The notes below the pieces were generated by a model. That model did no database searches. It was not told where the DNA came from and saw nothing but the letters and a program-made list of their open reading frames with translations. The position numbers and the translations under genes are program-made. Shown here one piece after another: positions 11,471 through 20,721 of a stretch of DNA of 64,000 bases; position 1 is the stretch's first letter; each line of letters begins with the position of its first letter. Origin of the DNA: Anaerolineae bacterium (lineage in GTDB: Bacteria > Chloroflexota > Anaerolineae > Anaerolineales > Anaerolineaceae); NCBI GenBank assembly GCA_013314735.1, contig JABUFD010000003.1, positions 186,001 through 250,000 on the forward strand. The letters are read 5' to 3'.

Positions 11471-12538
11471 TTAATCATGCTTCTTTTGTTTACGCAGGCG
11501 CGGATCCATCACATCACGGATTGCATCACCCAGCAGGTTCCACGCCAATACGAACAGGAATAACGCTGTCCCGGGGTAAATCACGGTATACCAGTACACA
11601 TCCAGGCTGGTGATCCAATCGCGCGAGAACGAGATGATCTGCCCCCAGTCCGCGTACCCAAGGTCGGCACCAATTCCCAGAAAGCTCAGCCCCGCAAAGG
11701 CAAGCACATATCCCCCCATATCCATCGAGGCAATCACCAGGGTGGGGTAAATGGCATTGGGAATAATGTGCCGGAACATGATCCGCGTATCACGTACGCC
11801 CAGTACGCGGGAGGCCATCACGTAGTCCTTGTGCTTGACGGATAAGATATTGGAGCGGATCAGGCGGGCATAAAACATCCAGCCGAACGCAATCAGTGCG
11901 ATCATTGGTGCCAGGATGGAGCGTCCCAGAATGGGCGAAAGCACCGATGACAACACCAGCGCAGCCATGATAAACGGCACTGTCATAAAAATATCAATGA
12001 TCCGCATCAGCACGTTATCGACCACGCCTCCATAATAGGCTGCCACCGTACCAATCACAACGCCAATGATGGTAACTGCCACGGTGATTACCACACCAGT
12101 TTTGAAAGCGGTGCGCGTCCCCCATACGACACCGTACAGGATATCCCACTGGCCTGGGGTGGTCCCCAGTACATGAGTGGGAGTTTCAATCCCGAACCAC
12201 CTGTACCAGAAGGGGTTTTTCTCAGGTGCATTGCGCTTCCATTCCGTCATCGGTGGTTTGGGTTCGGCTTTGAAACCATCACGTGGAATGGTAAAAGGAT
12301 CCACCTGGTCATTCATCGGTGGAGCGATCACCGGCGCGAACAGCGCCACCAGCATAAAAAATACCAGGATCGCCATCCCGATGATCGAAGCCGGAGTCTG
12401 AAAAAATGTTTTCACATTGCGAACAACATCGGTGCCCAGGCGGCGTTCCAGCCAACCTTGCTTTCGATTACGGTCCGCGCCAACCAGCAGCCGATCGATG
12501 GCACTTGAATCATTGAGAAGGTTCATTTCATTTTCCAT
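11471..12538 (-). CDS. Peptide ABC transporter permease, DppC/OppC type
   Basis: 355 aa inner-membrane permease. An N-terminal cytoplasmic stretch is followed by helix 1 (PASIIGMAILVFFMLVALFAPV), a ~75-residue extracytoplasmic loop, and five more helices. The ATPase-contact EAA loop is recognisable as VMASRVLGVRDTRIMFRHIIPNAIYP. This is the second permease of a type-5 solute-binding-protein importer and should pair with the DppB-like protein encoded just upstream (17 nt gap). AAGGAGAAGGAAG precedes the ATG. It is the last gene of the minus-strand half of the transporter locus. Confidence 0.93.
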   Translation of the reverse strand: MENEMNLLNDSSAIDRLLVGADRNRKQGWLERRLGTDVVRNVKTFFQTPASIIGMAILVFFMLVALFAPVIAPPMNDQVDPFTIPRDGFKAEPKPPMTEWKRNAPEKNPFWYRWFGIETPTHVLGTTPGQWDILYGVVWGTRTAFKTGVVITVAVTIIGVVIGTVAAYYGGVVDNVLMRIIDIFMTVPFIMAALVLSSVLSPILGRSILAPMIALIAFGWMFYARLIRSNILSVKHKDYVMASRVLGVRDTRIMFRHIIPNAIYPTLVIASMDMGGYVLAFAGLSFLGIGADLGYADWGQIISFSRDWITSLDVYWYTVIYPGTALFLFVLAWNLLGDAIRDVMDPRLRKQKKHD

Positions 12539-12555
12539 GGCTTCCTTCTCCTTTC

Positions 12556-13620
12556 TTAATTAAAGCGGATGCGCGGGTCAACGACCGCATACAACACATC
12601 AACGATCAGGTTTGCCACAATCAGCAAAGCGCCGTTGAATAGTGAAATGCCCAACACCGCAATCACATCCAGCGATGTAGCGGCAGTCGCCGCCGCGGAA
12701 CCAATTCCGGGGTAGTTGAACACGGTCTCAGTGATCACCACGCCGCTCAGCAGGGTAATGAATGTGCCACCTGCCAGGGTGATGACCGGCAGCAGCACAT
12801 TGGGAAATGCATGCTTCCACTGCGCGGCTTTGTGCGCCACCCCCTTGGAACGCGCGGTGATCATGTAATCCTGCGAGAGTTCCTCCAACATCGAGGAGCG
12901 CGTAACCCGCACAAAAGTTGCCCAACTGATATAAGACAAAGCCAGGATGGGCAGCACCATATGCTTGAGCACATCAATGAATACATCAAAGCGCCCATTG
13001 ATCAGCGCATCCACCGTCATCAGGCTGGTGTGAATGGCAAATGTACCCGCCTGGATTTCCTGGGTTACCCACGGTGACATGCGCCCGGGCGGAAACCACG
13101 AAAGTTTGGTGTAGAACACCATCAGTGCCACCAGGCCGAACACAAAAACTGGCATGGATGCACCGGTGATGCAGAAAATCCGGATCAGTTGGTCATAAAA
13201 GCTGTTGTAATGGATTGCTGCCTGGATGCCAAAAAAGGTACCAATCAACACAATGGGGAAAAAGCCCCACAGGGTCAGCTCCACCGTTGCCGGGAAGCGT
13301 TCAGCGATCATCTTGGCCACGGGCTGCTTGGCGGAATGAGAATAACCCAGCTCCCCACGCAGCACACCGCCCTGAACCTCGCCAGAGACAGGGTTCTTGA
13401 AACCCACCAGCCAGCGCCAATACTGCACCGGCAACGGGTCATCCAGCCCATAGGTGCGGATCACGGCATCCAATGCATCTTCGCTTTTGGGCAGGTCCCG
13501 CACATACAGGGCGGAACGCGCCACCGGTGATAGGAATTGCAACATGCCAAAGATCAGGAGTGTTACCCCGATCAGCAGCAGGGGAATAATCAGTAGTCTT
13601 CTGATGATATACGTCGTCAT
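12556..13620 (-). CDS. Peptide ABC transporter permease, DppB/OppB type
   Basis: 354 aa with the typical first helix (YIIRRLLIIPLLLIGVTLLIF), a long extracytoplasmic loop, and the EAA motif TARSKGVAHKAAQWKHAFPNVLLP followed by the GGTFITLLSGVVITETVFNYPGIG stretch diagnostic of DppB/OppB. It forms the channel with the DppC-like protein. The gene lies 106 nt downstream of the binding-protein gene with a strong stem-loop between them, so the permeases are probably expressed at a lower level than the receptor. Start region has only a weak AGG. Confidence 0.93.
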   Translation of the reverse strand: MTTYIIRRLLIIPLLLIGVTLLIFGMLQFLSPVARSALYVRDLPKSEDALDAVIRTYGLDDPLPVQYWRWLVGFKNPVSGEVQGGVLRGELGYSHSAKQPVAKMIAERFPATVELTLWGFFPIVLIGTFFGIQAAIHYNSFYDQLIRIFCITGASMPVFVFGLVALMVFYTKLSWFPPGRMSPWVTQEIQAGTFAIHTSLMTVDALINGRFDVFIDVLKHMVLPILALSYISWATFVRVTRSSMLEELSQDYMITARSKGVAHKAAQWKHAFPNVLLPVITLAGGTFITLLSGVVITETVFNYPGIGSAAATAATSLDVIAVLGISLFNGALLIVANLIVDVLYAVVDPRIRFN

Positions 13621-13676
13621 AATTCAAACCTGGTCGTCTTCTGTGATTGTTTTGGAAAAAATTGTTTTGAGAAAAT

Positions 13677-13702
13677 GGTCATCCGGCTTGCGCCGGATGA
13701 CC
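13677..13702 (-). terminator. Intercistronic stem-loop between binding protein and permease genes
   Basis: Perfect 11-bp stem GGTCATCCGGC/GCCGGATGACC with a 4-nt loop, followed on the minus strand by ATTTTCTC. The weak T tract suggests partial termination or 3' end protection of the abundant receptor mRNA. Confidence 0.6.
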
Positions 13703-13726
13703 GTATTGGATTCAGAAATATGGGCC

Positions 13727-15817
13727 TTAGTCGGCCAACTCAAAAATGGCTTTCTGGAATTCCTCGGCGCATTTGTCGAGATCGTAGGTATACAGCGGAT
13801 CGTCCCAGTTGTAGCCTTCCATGCCGGGCAGGGTAGCACCGGTGGGGCGCACGCCTTCACCTTGCAGCACTTCTTCGATGAACAAATCAGGATCGAAACA
13901 GTAGCTGAACGCGCGGCGCACATGGACGTTCGAGAAGAAATCCGCAGGAATCCCACTGCCATCAAGTGTGCCGGAACCGATGAACGGGTTGGAGCCGTCA
14001 ACAGACTGGATGTCATAGTTGAAGTAGATTTCAACCCGGTTGGCACCCACAGCACCCTTGAACAGGGTCAGGTTCACATCAGAGGTGTCTGTTCCCATGC
14101 CGGGCAGCAGTTCATCCGCGGGTGTAAAATCACCGGTTTCGATGTCGAACAGGAGCAATTCATGGACATACGGATCCACCTGTGAGATGTATTGGCGATC
14201 GACATAATTCATGTCGAGGTCGCCGCTCAACATCATCTGCAGACGGGTACCCCATTCTTCCACGGTTTTCAGCACAACACGTTCCAGTTTGGCATTGCCC
14301 ACAGGGCCGCCTTCCCAGGCGGGACCAATTTCTTCGGTACGCCAGTAATTGTCATTCCGCAGCAAAGTGACCTCGCTGGTGGCATGATCCCAGGTACCCA
14401 GTTTGAAGGGGCCGGTTCCGTTGGTGATCTCGTAGAACGGAGACTCTTCTTCGGTGGTGGAGTAATAGTTCTGCCAGGTGGCGCAGTCGCCATCCCAGGC
14501 ACCCTGTTCAATCGCCCATTCCATATCCATGATGGAAGCGCCGGTATGCGCCATGGCGGGGATGAAGGGAGCTTTTTTGGCGGTATGGAACACTACCTGT
14601 CCATCTTCGGTCACTTCAATGGAGTCTTTCACGGTCTGGCACACCTGCATCAAAACATCAGGATCGCCAGCCTGCATCTCTTCGCGGGTGGCGAAGGCAG
14701 GCACATTCTCATCGAGTGCATTGACCAGCTCGGAAACATCATCCACGCCGAACATCGGGCTGGTGATCATCCACTGCGGCGACCAGGCATAGCCGTTCAA
14801 CATACCGCGTTCGATGCTCCACTCGACATCTTCGGGGGTCAATTCACCGCCCTCATGGAAGGTAACACCCTCGCGGATGGTGAAGGTATAGGTCAGGCCG
14901 TCTTCTGCCACAGACCAATCGGTTGCCAGCTGTGGGAAGAATTCATTACCAGAGGTATGTTCAAACCATACCAGGGTTTCATAAACATTCTGCAGCACCT
15001 CACCGCCGCCGGTTTCATAATCAATCGCCGGGTCAAGAGTGTCAGGCTGGCCAATACCGCCCACGTACATCGTGTTGGGGTCCGGCGCGGCATCGGTTTT
15101 GGACAGGGGATAATAATAGAAATTGGAGTACAGGGGGTTGTAGTAATAGCCTTCAACCCATTCCTGCTCATAATGGCGGCCTTCAGCCATGTAACCGGGA
15201 ATGAACGTGGCGTCACTATACAGTTCCTGGTTCAGCGCGGCATACACAGCAGAACGGGCGTCAAAATCGCCAATGGCAGCCAGGCCGTCTTCGAGGTACT
15301 CGGCATATTTGCTGGTCAGTTCTTCCGGAATTCCGTAGCTGGCAGCGTAATACCCGGTCAGGTAGGGCTGGTACCAGTTGTGCGGATCATGGTAATCTTC
15401 CAGCCAACCGGTGGTGCCAAACGGCAATTGATGGGCGCGTGAGGCTTCCAAGTAATTGGGCCAGGGAAGCGCCTGTACTTCAATCACAAAGTTCGGGTTC
15501 ACCTGGGCAACGGAATCCCGCAGAATTTCAGCGACCACGCGGCGCATATCATTGCCTTCGTTGTAGCCAAACGTCACGCGGAATCCCGTGTCCCATACCG
15601 AAACACCGTTTTCAACCACTTCCTCTTCGGCTTCGGTCGGTTCTGCTACCTCTTCCTCATCCGCAGGATCTTCTGTTTCTTCCGCCGGCGCTTCGGTATT
15701 CGTTTCTTCTGCCGCCGGCACATCGGTCGCTGATTCTTCTGCGGCTGGCTTGCAGGCTGTGAGGGCAAAAGCCAGTACCAGTATGATGATCAGCAGGGTG
15801 TAAATGCTTTTTTTCAT
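13727..15817 (-). CDS. Solute-binding lipoprotein (SBP family 5), apparently circularly permuted
   Basis: 696 aa. Start at ATG 15817 is preferred over the TTG at 15823; GAGG lies 10 nt upstream. The signal peptide has lipobox LTAC (Cys22), followed by an acidic linker (23-73). Residues ~74-238 then match the part that normally ENDS Dpp/Opp-type receptors (VWDTGFRVTFGYNEGND, LPWPNYLEA, GWLEDYHDPHNW, YYNPLYSNFYYYPLSK). Residues ~240-696 match the part that normally BEGINS them (GGIGQPDTLDPAIDYETGG, VYETLVWF, LATDWSVAEDGLTYTFTI, GTGPFKLGTWDH) and stop after YDLDKCAEEFQKAIFELAD, exactly where the first segment would usually continue. Both parts are intact and in one frame. It should deliver peptides or other oligomers to the permeases encoded downstream. 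Family assignment is firm; the permutation is read from motif order. Confidence 0.9.
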   Translation of the reverse strand: MKKSIYTLLIIILVLAFALTACKPAAEESATDVPAAEETNTEAPAEETEDPADEEEVAEPTEAEEEVVENGVSVWDTGFRVTFGYNEGNDMRRVVAEILRDSVAQVNPNFVIEVQALPWPNYLEASRAHQLPFGTTGWLEDYHDPHNWYQPYLTGYYAASYGIPEELTSKYAEYLEDGLAAIGDFDARSAVYAALNQELYSDATFIPGYMAEGRHYEQEWVEGYYYNPLYSNFYYYPLSKTDAAPDPNTMYVGGIGQPDTLDPAIDYETGGGEVLQNVYETLVWFEHTSGNEFFPQLATDWSVAEDGLTYTFTIREGVTFHEGGELTPEDVEWSIERGMLNGYAWSPQWMITSPMFGVDDVSELVNALDENVPAFATREEMQAGDPDVLMQVCQTVKDSIEVTEDGQVVFHTAKKAPFIPAMAHTGASIMDMEWAIEQGAWDGDCATWQNYYSTTEEESPFYEITNGTGPFKLGTWDHATSEVTLLRNDNYWRTEEIGPAWEGGPVGNAKLERVVLKTVEEWGTRLQMMLSGDLDMNYVDRQYISQVDPYVHELLLFDIETGDFTPADELLPGMGTDTSDVNLTLFKGAVGANRVEIYFNYDIQSVDGSNPFIGSGTLDGSGIPADFFSNVHVRRAFSYCFDPDLFIEEVLQGEGVRPTGATLPGMEGYNWDDPLYTYDLDKCAEEFQKAIFELAD

Positions 15818-16241
15818 GATCAATGTTCCTCTCCTAAAATTTTTGATAACAATCTTCTGTGGATCAAACCCCTTCGTTTTTCTCGGAAATCACCTCCTTT
15901 CAAAATGATGCGGATATTGGTAAATGAGTGAAAGGTCGCTCAACCTTTCACTCATTTGGAGGAGAACTACCAACAATCAAATACGATTGTCAAGTACAAG
16001 GGATGGAAATTTCGTTTCAGATGTCATACGGAAATACACCGGGTATGGAGTGTTGGTACCAGTTTAGGATGCTGCCCGTTTTTCTGAAAGGGTTACCGGT
16101 GTTGTTCAACCCCCTACTGGAGTATTGTATTTGGCTGGCAAAAACCCTACCAGAAGACCCCCGGAAACCTGCACCGGGTGGCTTACCAGATCGGCGAAAT
16201 CGTTCTATGATGGTGGCTAAATTCATTTTTCGGGGCTGCTT
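15818..16241. other. 424-bp divergent regulatory region of the peptide transporter
   Basis: Separates the minus-strand receptor/permease genes from the plus-strand ATPase genes. It holds the receptor ribosome site (near 15830) and a 15-bp inverted repeat at 15922-15957. An open frame at 15928-16245 has no protein-like composition or ribosome site. No clear sigma-70 pair was found on either strand. Confidence 0.5.
15922..15957. repeat. Perfect 15-bp inverted repeat, candidate operator
   Basis: AAATGAGTGAAAGGT and its exact reverse complement with a 6-nt centre (CGCTCA), about 105 nt upstream of the receptor start and 285 nt upstream of the first ATPase gene. There is no T tract on either strand, so a regulator site is more likely than a terminator. 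Confidence 0.6.
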
Positions 16242-17252
16242 ATGAATCCAACACAACAAAAATTACTTGAAGTCAACAACCTGAGCGTCAGCTTTTCCAC
16301 CTATGAAGGGGTGGTGCATGCTGTCAACAACATTTCCTTCGATCTGAAAAACGGTGAGTCGATCGCGATCGTCGGGGAAAGCGGCTGCGGCAAGAGTGCT
16401 TCCATGTTTGCCATCATGGGCCTCCACAACCGTGCCATTACCCGCATTACGGCAGATTCGATCCTGTTTGATGGGCGTGACCTGCGGAGGGCATCTGAAA
16501 ATGAGATGAACAATATCCGCGGCAAGGACATCGCCATGATCTTCCAGGACCCGATGACCTCCTTTAACCCGGTACTCAGCATCAGAACGCAAATATGCGA
16601 AGCGCTCAAACTGCATTTCAGAATGAATCGGAAACAAGCAGAAGAGCGCGCACTGGAATTACTTTCCCTGGTCGGCATCCCGGACCCCAAAAGCCGCCTG
16701 GATGATTACCCCCACCAATTTTCCGGCGGTATGCGCCAACGCGCGATGATTGCCATGGCGCTGGCATGTGACCCAAAAATTTTGATCGCGGATGAACCCA
16801 CCACCGCCCTGGATGTCACCATCCAGGCACAGATTATGGACCTGGTGAAAGAACTGCAGCAAAAGCTGCACATGTCGATCATCTGGATCACGCATGACCT
16901 GGGTGTGGTTGCCAATATTGCCGAACGGGTGAATGTGATGTACGGTGGTTACATCGTTGAAAATGGACGGGCGGAAGATGTATTCCACAACCCCCAGCAT
17001 CCGTACACGATCGGTCTGTTGGGTAGTCTGCCGGGGATTAAAGGACGGGAAGGGCAACGCCTCTACTCGATTGAAGGCATCCCCCCTGTTCTGTACCAAC
17101 CCGCCGCCATCTGCCCATTCGCACCGCGCTGTGAATACCGCACTGAGCGCTGTCTGCAAGAAAACCCGCCGTTGATCAGCAGGAACGGCACAGCCGAACA
17201 CCACGCCGCCTGCTGGGTGGAACTCCGCCAGCAGCAAGGAGCAACCGTATGA
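16242..17252 (+). CDS. Peptide ABC transporter ATP-binding protein, DppD/OppD type
   Basis: 336 aa ATPase with Walker [11 protein letters not shown] (about 47), Q-loop [10 protein letters not shown], signature FSGGMRQR, Walker [14 protein letters not shown] and the H-loop [15 protein letters not shown]. The C-terminal oligopeptide-transporter extension carries four cysteines in CPFAPRC-x6-C with a later Cys, the pattern that binds an Fe-S cluster in some OppD proteins. It powers uptake with its partner encoded next, which overlaps by 4 nt (ATGA). GGGG lies 7 nt before the start. Transcribed divergently from the receptor. Confidence 0.95.
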
Positions 17253-18250
17253 CCCACGCTACCCACCTACAACCGTCCCAGGACGATTGGATCCTGAAAG
17301 TCGACAACTTAAAACAACATTTTCCCATTCGCCGCGGAGTATTCCAGCGCGTGGTAGGACATGTACATGCCGTGGATGGGGTCAGTTTTTCTGTCAGGCG
17401 CGGTGAAACCCTGGGCCTGGTTGGTGAATCCGGCTGCGGAAAAACAACCACCGGCCGTTCGATCCTGCAATTGTACAAACCCACCGACGGGCATGTGTAC
17501 TTCAACGGGCAGGACCTGACCCGGCTTCCCCGCCCTGAAATGCGCAAACTGCGCAGCAAGATTCAAATGATCTTTCAGGACCCGTATTCCTCGCTTGACC
17601 CGCGCATGACGATCGAAGAGATCATCGCTGAAGGCCTGCCGGCAAAAGGGTACGCCTCCCGTGCAGACAACCGTGAACGCGTAAAAGATTTAATGAAACT
17701 GGTCAACCTCAGCCCGAATTACATTGACCGCTACGCCCACGAATTTTCCGGCGGCCAGCGCCAGCGCATCGGCGTCGCGCGCGCACTGGCGGTGAAACCG
17801 GAGCTGATCATCTGCGATGAACCTATCTCCGCCCTCGACGTATCGGTGCAGGCCCAGGTGGTCAACCTGCTGATGGACCTGCAGAAAGACCTGGGATTGA
17901 CTTATCTCTTCATTGCGCATGACCTCTCAATGGTCCGCCATATTTCCGACCGGGTGGCTGTGATGTACCTGGGTTTGATCGTGGAATTGGCCAGTTCCAA
18001 AGTGCTCTACGAAAAGCCGATGCATCCTTATACACAGGTGCTGATGTCTGCTGTTCCCGTACCAGACCCGGTGGTGGAGAAATCACGCAAGCGGATCATC
18101 CTCGAGGGAGATGTTCCCTCACCTGTCAACCAGCCGGGCGGGTGTTACTTCCATCCACGCTGCCCGATGGCCAAACCAATCTGCGCCCAAAAACGTCCAG
18201 ATTGGCGCGAAATTGAACATGATCACTGGGTCGCCTGTCATTTCGCCTGA
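17249..18250 (+). CDS. Peptide ABC transporter ATP-binding protein, DppF/OppF type
   Basis: 333 aa second ATPase: N-terminal [15 protein letters not shown] typical of the F subunit, Walker [14 protein letters not shown], signature [15 protein letters not shown], Walker [22 protein letters not shown]-loop [15 protein letters not shown]. The C-terminal extension again has CYFHPRC-x6-C and a final Cys. Its start overlaps the DppD-like stop by 4 nt, so the two are coupled and should form the heterodimer driving the two permeases. It is followed by a large inverted repeat and then a two-component system. Confidence 0.95.
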
Positions 18251-18458: not shown

Positions 18459-20081
18459 ATGTCGAAGAAACCCTTAGCGCTCAATTTGCGGGCCAAATTA
18501 TTTCTCAGCTATACCCTGGTGACCACCCTGGCTTTCCTGCTGGTAGAACTGGTGCTGTTGGCAATCATGATGGCAGCCTTTATGCGTTCTTCGGAACTGA
18601 CGCCAGCCGAGATCAATGCCGAGGTGGAACAAAATTGGGTGCCCGTGATCACGCCCTACCTGGTTAATTTCCGCCAAAACCATCCAGCCATTCAAATCGC
18701 CCTGCAAAAATACCGGGGGTTTATCCTGCTCTCCCGCACAGTTGAAGTGTCGAATTTAATACACCTTGATTTTCTAAGTGAAAATTACCTGACATTGATC
18801 TTCCTCGATAACCGTGGAAATCCCATTGATTCAATCCCGCATCCCGTACTGGAGCAGGAGGCCGATATTCCCTTTGAAGGTAATTTCCGGGACGAATTGG
18901 CGGAATATACCGCAAGAATATATACCGTGACCAACAACACGGAAGAAAATTCCATCTATTTCACCCCCTCCATCCAGCGCTATTATGATACCCAGTTGAA
19001 AGAGATGGTGGACCAGCCCGATATTACCACGGTGATTGAAGCTGCACTCAGCGGTGAAACAGAATTTTCGCAATTGCACATCGAAAACAACAATCTCGCC
19101 ACGGGCATCGTACCCATCCGGCATCCCGACAATCACAATTCGATGATTGGCGCCATTGTATGGCGTGCAGAATTGAATCCGTGGGAGATCATCCAATTTC
19201 GCGACTTCTCCCAAAAAATTCTGATCGCACTGGGCATTACCACCCTGTTTTCAGCGGTATTGGGTACCATATTTGGCATTTTTTCTTCCCGCAACCTGGT
19301 AGGGCGGCTCTCGAACCTGTCATCGGTGATCAATGAATGGTCGCATGGCAATTTCGCATCAAAGATCACCGACGAAGAGACCGATGAATTAAACCAGGTC
19401 GCAGTCGATTTGAATCAGATGTCCGGACACATCGAAACGTTGCTGCTGGAAAAACAGGAAATGTCGATCATCCGTGAACGCAACCGCCTGGCGCGCGACC
19501 TGCATGACAGTGTGAAACAGGAAACCTTTGCGGCTTCTGCACAACTGGCAGCAGCCAGGTCGTTGATCCGCAGCAAACCTGATGCGGCCGAAGGCCATCT
19601 GAATGAAGCCAATTTGATACTGGATCGTGTTCGTACCGAATTGACCAGCCTGATCCACGAACTTTATCCTACCCTCCTCGAAAATCGCAATCTTGCCGAA
19701 TCGATTCGCGCGTTTGCCAGTGACTGGGAAGGAATCTACCATATTAAACCCAATATCGAAATTGTCGGCTACCGCGGCCTGCCCAAAGCCGTGGAAAAAA
19801 CTTTCTACCTGATCCTGCAGGAAGCGCTCTCCAATGTCGCACGTCACAGCCACGCCACCGAGGTGGATATATACCTCAAACAGAATCCCCTCAATGTTTT
19901 CATGATGGTATCTGATAACGGCTGTGGCATGGCAACCGACCGCAAAAGCCTGGGGATCGGGATGAAGTCGATGAATGAACGCGCCCGATTAATGGGCGGC
20001 ACCCTCGACATGGCTTCCAGCCCGGCGGAGGGAACCTGCATTCGGATTGAAATACCTTTGGATGGAAATGATGAATCATAA
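18459..20081 (+). CDS. Membrane sensor histidine kinase, NarL/LiaS type (HisKA_3)
   Basis: 540 aa. Helix 1 at about 21-43, a ~200-residue extracytoplasmic sensor region without a recognised fold, helix 2 at about 248-270, HAMP (about 275-325), a HisKA_3 dimerisation helix with phosphorylated His349 in RDLHDSVKQE, and a GHKL ATPase domain (N-box ALSNVARHSHA, DNGCGM, GIGMKSMNERA). The DSVKQ variant after the His is the LiaS/YvqE-like form. It should phosphorylate the response regulator encoded next, which overlaps its 3' end. Placement right after the transporter ATPases suggests, but does not prove, control of peptide uptake or envelope response. Confidence 0.92.
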   Translation: MSKKPLALNLRAKLFLSYTLVTTLAFLLVELVLLAIMMAAFMRSSELTPAEINAEVEQNWVPVITPYLVNFRQNHPAIQIALQKYRGFILLSRTVEVSNLIHLDFLSENYLTLIFLDNRGNPIDSIPHPVLEQEADIPFEGNFRDELAEYTARIYTVTNNTEENSIYFTPSIQRYYDTQLKEMVDQPDITTVIEAALSGETEFSQLHIENNNLATGIVPIRHPDNHNSMIGAIVWRAELNPWEIIQFRDFSQKILIALGITTLFSAVLGTIFGIFSSRNLVGRLSNLSSVINEWSHGNFASKITDEETDELNQVAVDLNQMSGHIETLLLEKQEMSIIRERNRLARDLHDSVKQETFAASAQLAAARSLIRSKPDAAEGHLNEANLILDRVRTELTSLIHELYPTLLENRNLAESIRAFASDWEGIYHIKPNIEIVGYRGLPKAVEKTFYLILQEALSNVARHSHATEVDIYLKQNPLNVFMMVSDNGCGMATDRKSLGIGMKSMNERARLMGGTLDMASSPAEGTCIRIEIPLDGNDES

Positions 20082-20721
20082 AATTAATGTGATCGTTGTG
20101 GATGACCACGAGGTTGTGCGCAATGGCGTGTGTGCCTATCTCAAAGCCCAGGAGGATATCCTGGTGGTCGGTGAGGCAGCTGGCGGCGAAGAAGCCGTGG
20201 CAAAGGTGCGTGACCTGGTGCCAGACGTGGTGCTGATGGATCTGGTCATGGAAGGCAGCATGGACGGCGTCGAAGCCACCCGCCGGGTGAAACGCATCTC
20301 ACCACGCACGCAGGTGGTTGTGTTGACCTCTTATCACCAGGATGAATACATTTTCCCGGCCCTCAAAGCAGGTGCCATTTCCTACATCATTAAAGATGTG
20401 AAAATGGAAGAACTGGCGGAAGCCATCCGCCGTGCCGCGCGCAACGAAGCCACCCTGCATTCGCAGGTGGCTTCGCGGGTGATTCAGGAATTGCGCGGCG
20501 GTAATTTCGATGAAACCAACCCCTTCACCGAATTAACCACGCGTGAGATGGATGTGTTGAAACTAATCGCTCAAGGCCTGACCAACAGCCAGATCGCCGA
20601 GCAGCTGATCATCTCGGAAAACACGGTCAAGGGTCATGTCAGCAATATCCTCAGCAAATTGCAACTGGTCGACCGGACCCAGGCGGCTGTCTTTGCCTGG
20701 AAAAAAGGGATTGTAAAATAG
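20071..20721 (+). CDS. NarL/FixJ-family response regulator
   Basis: 216 aa. Receiver domain with acidic pocket DDHE, phosphorylated Asp57 (VVLMDLV), conserved Thr/Ser (VVLTSY) and Lys (YIIKDV); C-terminal LuxR-type helix-turn-helix (LTTREMDVLKLIAQGLTNSQIAEQL, ENTVKGHVSNIL). Start chosen at ATG 20071; in-frame ATGs at 20062 and 20068 also exist and all lie inside the kinase gene, so the overlap implies coupled translation with the cognate kinase. A cytoplasmic DNA-binding regulator whose target sites are not identified; the 15-bp inverted repeat at 15922 is one place to look. Confidence 0.93.
   Translation: MNHKINVIVVDDHEVVRNGVCAYLKAQEDILVVGEAAGGEEAVAKVRDLVPDVVLMDLVMEGSMDGVEATRRVKRISPRTQVVVLTSYHQDEYIFPALKAGAISYIIKDVKMEELAEAIRRAARNEATLHSQVASRVIQELRGGNFDETNPFTELTTREMDVLKLIAQGLTNSQIAEQLIISENTVKGHVSNILSKLQLVDRTQAAVFAWKKGIVK

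Follow-up and report, generated by a model that had tools for sequence, protein, structure and literature searches.

Sequence evidence for a circularly permuted family 5 solute-binding lipoprotein in an Anaerolineae Opp-type importer locus

The receptor gene and its neighbours

The window, by which we mean the whole 64,000-nt stretch of Anaerolineae bacterium DNA, carries on its minus strand a gene for a permuted family 5 solute-binding lipoprotein of 696 amino acids (13727–15817, ATG at 15817, the stop codon at 13729–13727 included), referred to here as the window receptor. The preliminary description had these coordinates right and gave no strand. The protein begins with a signal peptide up to the lipobox Cys22 (LTAC; 15752–15817), assigned from the sequence and the lipobox rule. 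An acidic linker of 51 residues follows (residues 23–73; 15599–15751), placed by the same rule and by the model, and largely predicted to be disordered; residues 17–58 have pLDDT below 50 and are the sole segment of at least three residues in the model to do so. By sequence alignment, residues 74–240 (15098–15598) are the counterpart of the C-terminal segment of OppA, DppA and the ordinary-order orthologues, and include Asp141 (15395–15397), which aligns with residue 419 of OppA. The closure of the old C- and N-termini lies at approximately residues 241–246 (15080–15097), a predicted coil located by alignment and model. Residues 247–690 (13748–15079) correspond to the N-terminal segment of OppA and DppA according to Pfam, PDB sequence matches and VIA-align, and the alignment assigns residues 691–696 (13730–13747) to a new C-terminal tail. 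All of these parts are read from the minus strand. The two segments proposed earlier (approximately residues 74–238 and 240–696) agree with the Pfam match and the OppA alignment to within a few residues.

Downstream of the receptor gene, on the same minus strand, domain searches placed an oppB-type permease gene (BPD_transp_1; 12556–13620) and an oppC-type permease gene (BPD_transp_1 and OppC_N; 11471–12538). The genes for the oppD-type ATPase (16242–17252) and the oppF-type ATPase (17249–18250) lie on the plus strand, divergent from the receptor gene. Directly after oppF, at 18459–20721, there is a histidine kinase gene (HisKA_3) with a LuxR-type response regulator, a pair that possibly regulates the importer.

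The window receptor is matched by PF00496 at 205.7 bits, against a curated cut-off of 32.4. This is its sole Pfam match up to E 1, and the cluster B periplasmic-binding domain of Type Ic receptors is absent from that range. With the OppA/DppA-type receptors of family 5 (Cluster C, PF00496) it shares sequence, lipoprotein leader, OppBCDF partners and, on the predicted model, the two-lobed cluster C fold; their chain runs in the ordinary order, whereas that of the window receptor is rotated and departs from the canonical N-to-C order of the fold. In view of the sequence homology and the PF00496 match, it is still filed in family 5, as a permuted variant.

The exchanged order and the predicted fold

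The PF00496 match consists of two stretches, the best of which places residues 293–694 on profile positions 2–280. In the genome search, profile positions 256–364 were found upstream of positions 2–284 within the single open frame of the window gene. Residues 365–508 of OppA align to residues 85–234 of the window receptor, and from residue 243 onward the alignment is to the N-terminal regions of other family 5 proteins. When the sequence was rotated in steps of three residues against the ordinary-order orthologue of Pelolinea submarina, the best rotation started at residue 242 and scored 1561, compared to 1125 for the unrotated protein. The rotated protein outscored the native order in all nine valid comparisons with ordinary-order relatives; a tenth row (L005), for which the wrong ORF had been picked, was left out of the count. 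The two blocks separately match the Pelolinea submarina orthologue with 426 and 184 bits, and on these scores the two matches are not given by chance. The old ends are joined in the window receptor as ...YYYPLSKTDAAPDPNT..., where the Pelolinea submarina orthologue has its C-terminal end YYYEMSKN and its N-terminal start ASKDPTT. The alignment places the new ends in a loop, after a helix with KCAEEF at its end and before a strand that starts (V)WDTGF. Two collinear blocks have thus changed places, with the old ends linked and the new ones inside a formerly continuous stretch. On these alignments the window receptor polypeptide is a circularly permuted family 5 solute-binding lipoprotein with its lipobox still first. 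This bears out what had been proposed from the first reading of the DNA, namely a permutation in one frame with the lipobox first; a full-length alignment in the normal order was looked for and did not appear.

Relatives with the same order, which the preliminary description had called for, were sought as well. Among 25 loci compared, 19 have the ordinary order, one (L004) has the order of the window receptor, and two (L020 and L021) have another permuted order; L023 and L027 run off their contigs and fit the L020/L021 order and the ordinary order alike, and L028 is a distant partial match. The matching gene, which appears in our sets as L004, L029 and L141, comes from an independent assembly of another genus (G107, a Pelolinea MAG) and is 48–49% identical to the window receptor.

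AlphaFold2 modeled the window receptor with a mean pLDDT of 87.8 and a pTM of 0.84. Its alignment had 63 rows, namely the window protein, the G107 protein, and T3 and T0 fragments (orders defined below) that were cut by homology, so that the model is not independent of the homology claim. A Foldseek search of the PDB aligned at most 469 columns, with a target TM-score of at most 0.51 among the 50 rows listed, and such low coverage is expected since the aligner is sequential and the chain is permuted. VIA-align superposed residues 248–693 of the model on residues 1–345 of DppA (Z 21.9, 318 aligned, rmsd 3.2). In the structural check that had been suggested, a confident model was obtained and the aligners placed its 240–695 part, with segment 74–240 being matched by sequence alone. 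The chain is predicted to fold into the usual two-lobed receptor. In OppA, residue Asp419 holds the amino terminus of the bound peptide; Asp141 aligns to it without gaps and is kept by all 12 permuted proteins in alignment A2. The proposal that ligand contacts are kept draws its support from two sources, this conservation and the predicted model. In the model, coil is predicted at each of the break sites and at the closure.

Break sites in Chloroflexota receptors

The doubled core of the window receptor was compared with the ORFs of 111 loci, and five orders were found in the subfamily, the ordinary one (T0) and four non-canonical ones with different break sites: T1, broken at residues 690/74, in the window receptor and G107; T2, broken at 446/448; T3, broken at 604/610; and T4, broken at 370/387, in one genome (G201). 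The complete rotated cores number 53 for T0, 2 for T1, 2 for T2, 39 for T3, the commonest permuted order in the sample, and 1 for T4, counts that are not frequencies because the loci had been chosen as best or odd matches. The count comprises 97 rows and excludes shorter ORFs as well as L126, a truncated copy of the window gene. By the lipobox rule, all 45 permuted rows have a lipoprotein leader (T1 3, one of these being the cut copy of the window gene, T2 2, T3 39, T4 1), as do 55 of the 65 T0 rows. The linker has a median length of 39 residues in T0 and 37 in T3, and measures 51 and 25 in the two T1 genes; permutation therefore needs no longer linker. The closures look alike across T1–T4, and in T1, T3 and T4 they consist of SK, a few residues, and N/D-P. 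Ordinary-order receptors of this subfamily were also seen fused to long extra N-terminal regions (L129–L133, ORFs of 973–1199 amino acids).

The operon partners of the window receptor are syntenic with those of the ordinary and the other permuted orthologues. In the relatives the genes run oppD-oppF-receptor-oppB-oppC, all on the same strand, be the receptor ordinary (L005, L006, L008, L013, L022, L147), T1 (L141) or T3 (L143–L146, L111); in the two T2 loci the receptor is followed by oppB and oppC. The window itself (11471–18250) has its receptor-oppB-oppC block divergent from oppD-oppF, unlike the relatives compared, which have the five genes on one strand.

The distribution of the orders was examined on trees, with the order labels assigned from the break sites before the trees were built. 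On the receptor tree of 97 cores, T3 needs five changes, of which starred branches force four, and a single T3 clade is rejected (quick tree, p-AU 1.9e-6). On the permease tree of 60 OppB+OppC pairs, the five orders need ten changes, six of them for T3 (starred branches force three) and two for T1, and a single T3 clade is again rejected (careful tree, p-AU 7.4e-13). T2 forms one clade in both trees. The two T1 receptors group with two ordinary-order receptors of the Pelolinea group in the receptor tree (starred at 96 for the group as a whole). The placement of the window receptor and of its permeases is unsure because of their long branches (0.81 and 1.18, respectively). Transfer or conversion of receptor genes could add to the scattered pattern of orders. 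It seems that one kind of receptor has had its chain ends moved repeatedly while keeping the same place in the transport operon, and the trees and break sites together indicate that permutation has recurred in family 5 at a limited set of loops.

Other subfamilies of family 5 are permuted as well, at three of the subfamily break sites and at one further site. A PF00496 search revealed a second permuted receptor in the window's own genome (G000 contig 6, 485779–487283; L140:5765–7479, minus strand), divided between two overlapping ORFs that lie in different frames, with oppB, oppC, oppD and oppF after it. Its arrangement, T5, has positions 209–645 of the generic profile before positions 105–204, and the break matches the T4 site (L092 ends at profile position 208). 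A T5 receptor was also modeled confidently (pLDDT 85.3, pTM 0.78, 27 rows). Fourteen of 16 candidate loci hold 15 T5 ORFs from 12 genomes; of the other two, L160 (G133) is broken at the window's site and L164, which is cut, was left unassigned. Further cases are broken at the window's site (L183, G822), at the T3 site (L180 and L181) and at the fifth site (L182), the last corresponding to approximately residues 128–132 on the window model, where it was placed by eye. Sequence comparison gives at least five break sites across several family 5 subfamilies. The single case envisaged in the preliminary description is real and has company. The generic HMM flagged 69 ORFs as permuted and left 95 as normal or undetermined, figures that give no frequency because records were repeated, the sample was chosen and the window gene itself went unflagged.

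A profile of the closed junction of the 12 permuted proteins in alignment A2 matched, at E 1e-60 or better, at least 57 of 400 evenly drawn Chloroflexota genomes, the window's own included, and this is a lower bound because six candidates were scored per genome. All 63 rows listed cross the junction in one open frame. In a search of 201 genomes at E 1e-25, 43 were matched; 28 rows cross the junction strongly and four weakly, the sequences of these four being permuted in every case when fetched, and the other rows lie in one half or touch only the border of the junction. The profile, built from permuted proteins, does not pick up distant ones. It matched 113 PDB sequences, and in the best 60 of these the best stretch lies in one half only.

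Outside Chloroflexota the survey covered plasmids. The window junction was covered to at least 80% in five of 1744 matched records, four of them two-piece matches in Deinococcus and one a single-piece match in Subdoligranulum. The 20 listed of 1102 matches to the T5 junction were all two-piece (59 covered to at least 80%), as were 11 of the 12 listed of 2917 matches to the Subdoligranulum junction (827 covered to at least 80%), the twelfth being that receptor itself. A far-apart pair of pieces is what the ordinary order produces. The order was read in four records, from Deinococcus (H1), Chelatococcus (H21) and two Shinella (H7 and H13), and all four are ordinary; the single weak piece in the two Shinella proteins that seemed to cross the junction in fact runs into the leader. 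Subdoligranulum variabile (OY725879.1, L179:4128–5918) has a permuted T5-type receptor, encoded after oppB-C-D-F. The sequence of this receptor, from a Clostridia record, is far from those of the Chloroflexota permuted receptors. From the matches listed and the records read, the permuted order looks rare among plasmid records.

Origin and precedents

We regard it as highly probable that the product of the window gene serves an Opp/Dpp-type ABC importer as its lipid-anchored receptor, and that this product is a naturally circularly permuted polypeptide. As judged from the alignments, the old N- and C-termini were fused through a closure of a few residues, new ends opened in a loop of the former C-terminal part, and the new N-terminus retained the signal peptide and the long acidic linker. 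Family and operon suggest that ligand binding and docking on OppB/OppC would proceed as in the ordinary-order orthologues. The lipid tether would leave the receptor from a different place, which the flexible linker would tolerate. The change probably arose in place within the operon. Its simplest route would be a tandem duplication of the core in frame and trimming of both ends, given that the leader and the linker remain at the front and that only short closures are seen.

A chimera of two receptor genes created in assembly, or a scrambled and non-functional gene, is a most improbable account of the locus, even though the assembly is a draft in 13 contigs and the second permuted receptor of the same genome is split over two frames. 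The gene is one open frame with a complete lipoprotein N-terminus, a tblastn search found no second copy of the core in the window, and the same order, at 48–49% identity, exists in another genus. There are also 39 T3 and two T2 relatives, with comparable closures in those inspected, and on this recurrence in other assemblies a mis-assembly of two genes was rejected. The receptor could also have split into two genes that then fused in the other order, which would lead to the same end product as duplication and trimming and is a recognised route (PMC3320104). Among 2207 distinct ORFs of the loci searched with four blocks of the window protein, a search that repeated an earlier generic-HMM check, weak on this subfamily, no tandem-duplicated intermediate was found in what is a small sample, as fission and fusion would have it. 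A block was matched in 142 of these ORFs, and one has a block twice: a multidomain protein of another kind, 5229 amino acids long (L236:3156–18842, G110), which holds two ordinary-order family 5 domains in one chain. Neither tblastn nor blastn found remnants of a duplicated part in the window, where the weak extra matches had E values of 0.45 or worse. A separate fission would be needed for every one of the five break sites, and all of the permuted rows keep their leader in first place; both points weigh lightly against fission and fusion, which we consider unlikely. Thirteen long ORFs (L007 and L109 being one gene) were tried as duplication intermediates and rejected, as they have the ordinary order with inserts or extra domains.

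The recurrence might be more apparent than real if a few ancient permutations were followed by transfer or gene conversion of whole receptor genes, which would scatter T3 and T1. The closures look alike across T1–T4, as this would predict, and the receptor gene could be replaceable within the conserved operon. However, both trees reject monophyly of T3, and the receptor tree puts the T1 receptors together with those of ordinary order from Pelolinea. Permutation at these sites also occurs in other subfamilies, and at least one event per break site would be needed even so; we find this account doubtful. As to why permutation should recur, we give roughly even chances to the idea that the family 5 receptors of Chloroflexota are topologically fluid. 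Their ends would keep moving among a few loops within one operon slot, with tether and long linker making the position of the ends nearly free, or a tether re-sited with respect to the permease would be selected.

Several protein families exist in more than one order, the DNA methyltransferases among them, and these come closest to the many orders of family 5. Elements of the periplasmic-binding fold are also reordered by domain dislocation between PBP classes, a deep event between fold classes, whereas the family 5 changes took place among orthologues. Tp0684 (MglB-2) of Treponema pallidum comes nearest as a precedent. It is likewise a natural, circularly permuted, lipid-anchored ABC receptor, for glucose (Type Ic/Cluster Bc), and its authors raise anchoring as a possible reason for the permutation (PMC4990184). 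As described there, Tp0684 has a Cluster B fold and one permuted topology, whereas family 5 belongs to Cluster C and has at least five break sites, with both ordinary and permuted orthologues in one operon slot. Natural permutation by duplication is exemplified by saposin/swaposin and the DNA methyltransferases (PMC3320104), which have the same end product and probably the same route; family 5 differs in that orthologues of one receptor are concerned, with conserved operon partners, and in that the intermediate was not found. In the full-text literature, with preprints and most subscription papers outside that scope, we found no description of a natural circular permutation of a family 5 receptor, in keeping with the preliminary description, which knew of none; in PMC2265533, a candidate, the relevant terms co-occur by coincidence. 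Circular permutation as a kind of change and permuted ABC receptors are known already. We found no earlier description of permutation that recurs, at several sites, within the orthologues of a single ABC receptor.

Here one and the same operon slot, next to homologous permeases, holds ordinary and variously broken orthologues, so that the cost, the route and the selective value of moving chain ends become testable on natural sequences. Permuted receptors are easily mistaken for ordinary ones because linear domain models give two reversed matches. The break sites of family 5 also offer engineers of sensors based on this fold a guide from nature.

Two further arrangements were observed among the permuted receptors. 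On contig 5 of the window's own genome (L125:196–3732, minus strand), an ORF of 1179 amino acids combines a protein kinase domain (PF00069, 188 bits) with a PF00496 match of 88.9 bits; the family 5-like domain appears to be permuted too (profile positions 148–364 before 21–57, the second match being weak), and a membrane segment, read by eye, lies between the two domains. In the small genome G1093, contigs 68 and 79 hold two pairs of permuted receptor genes, the members of each pair being neighbours.
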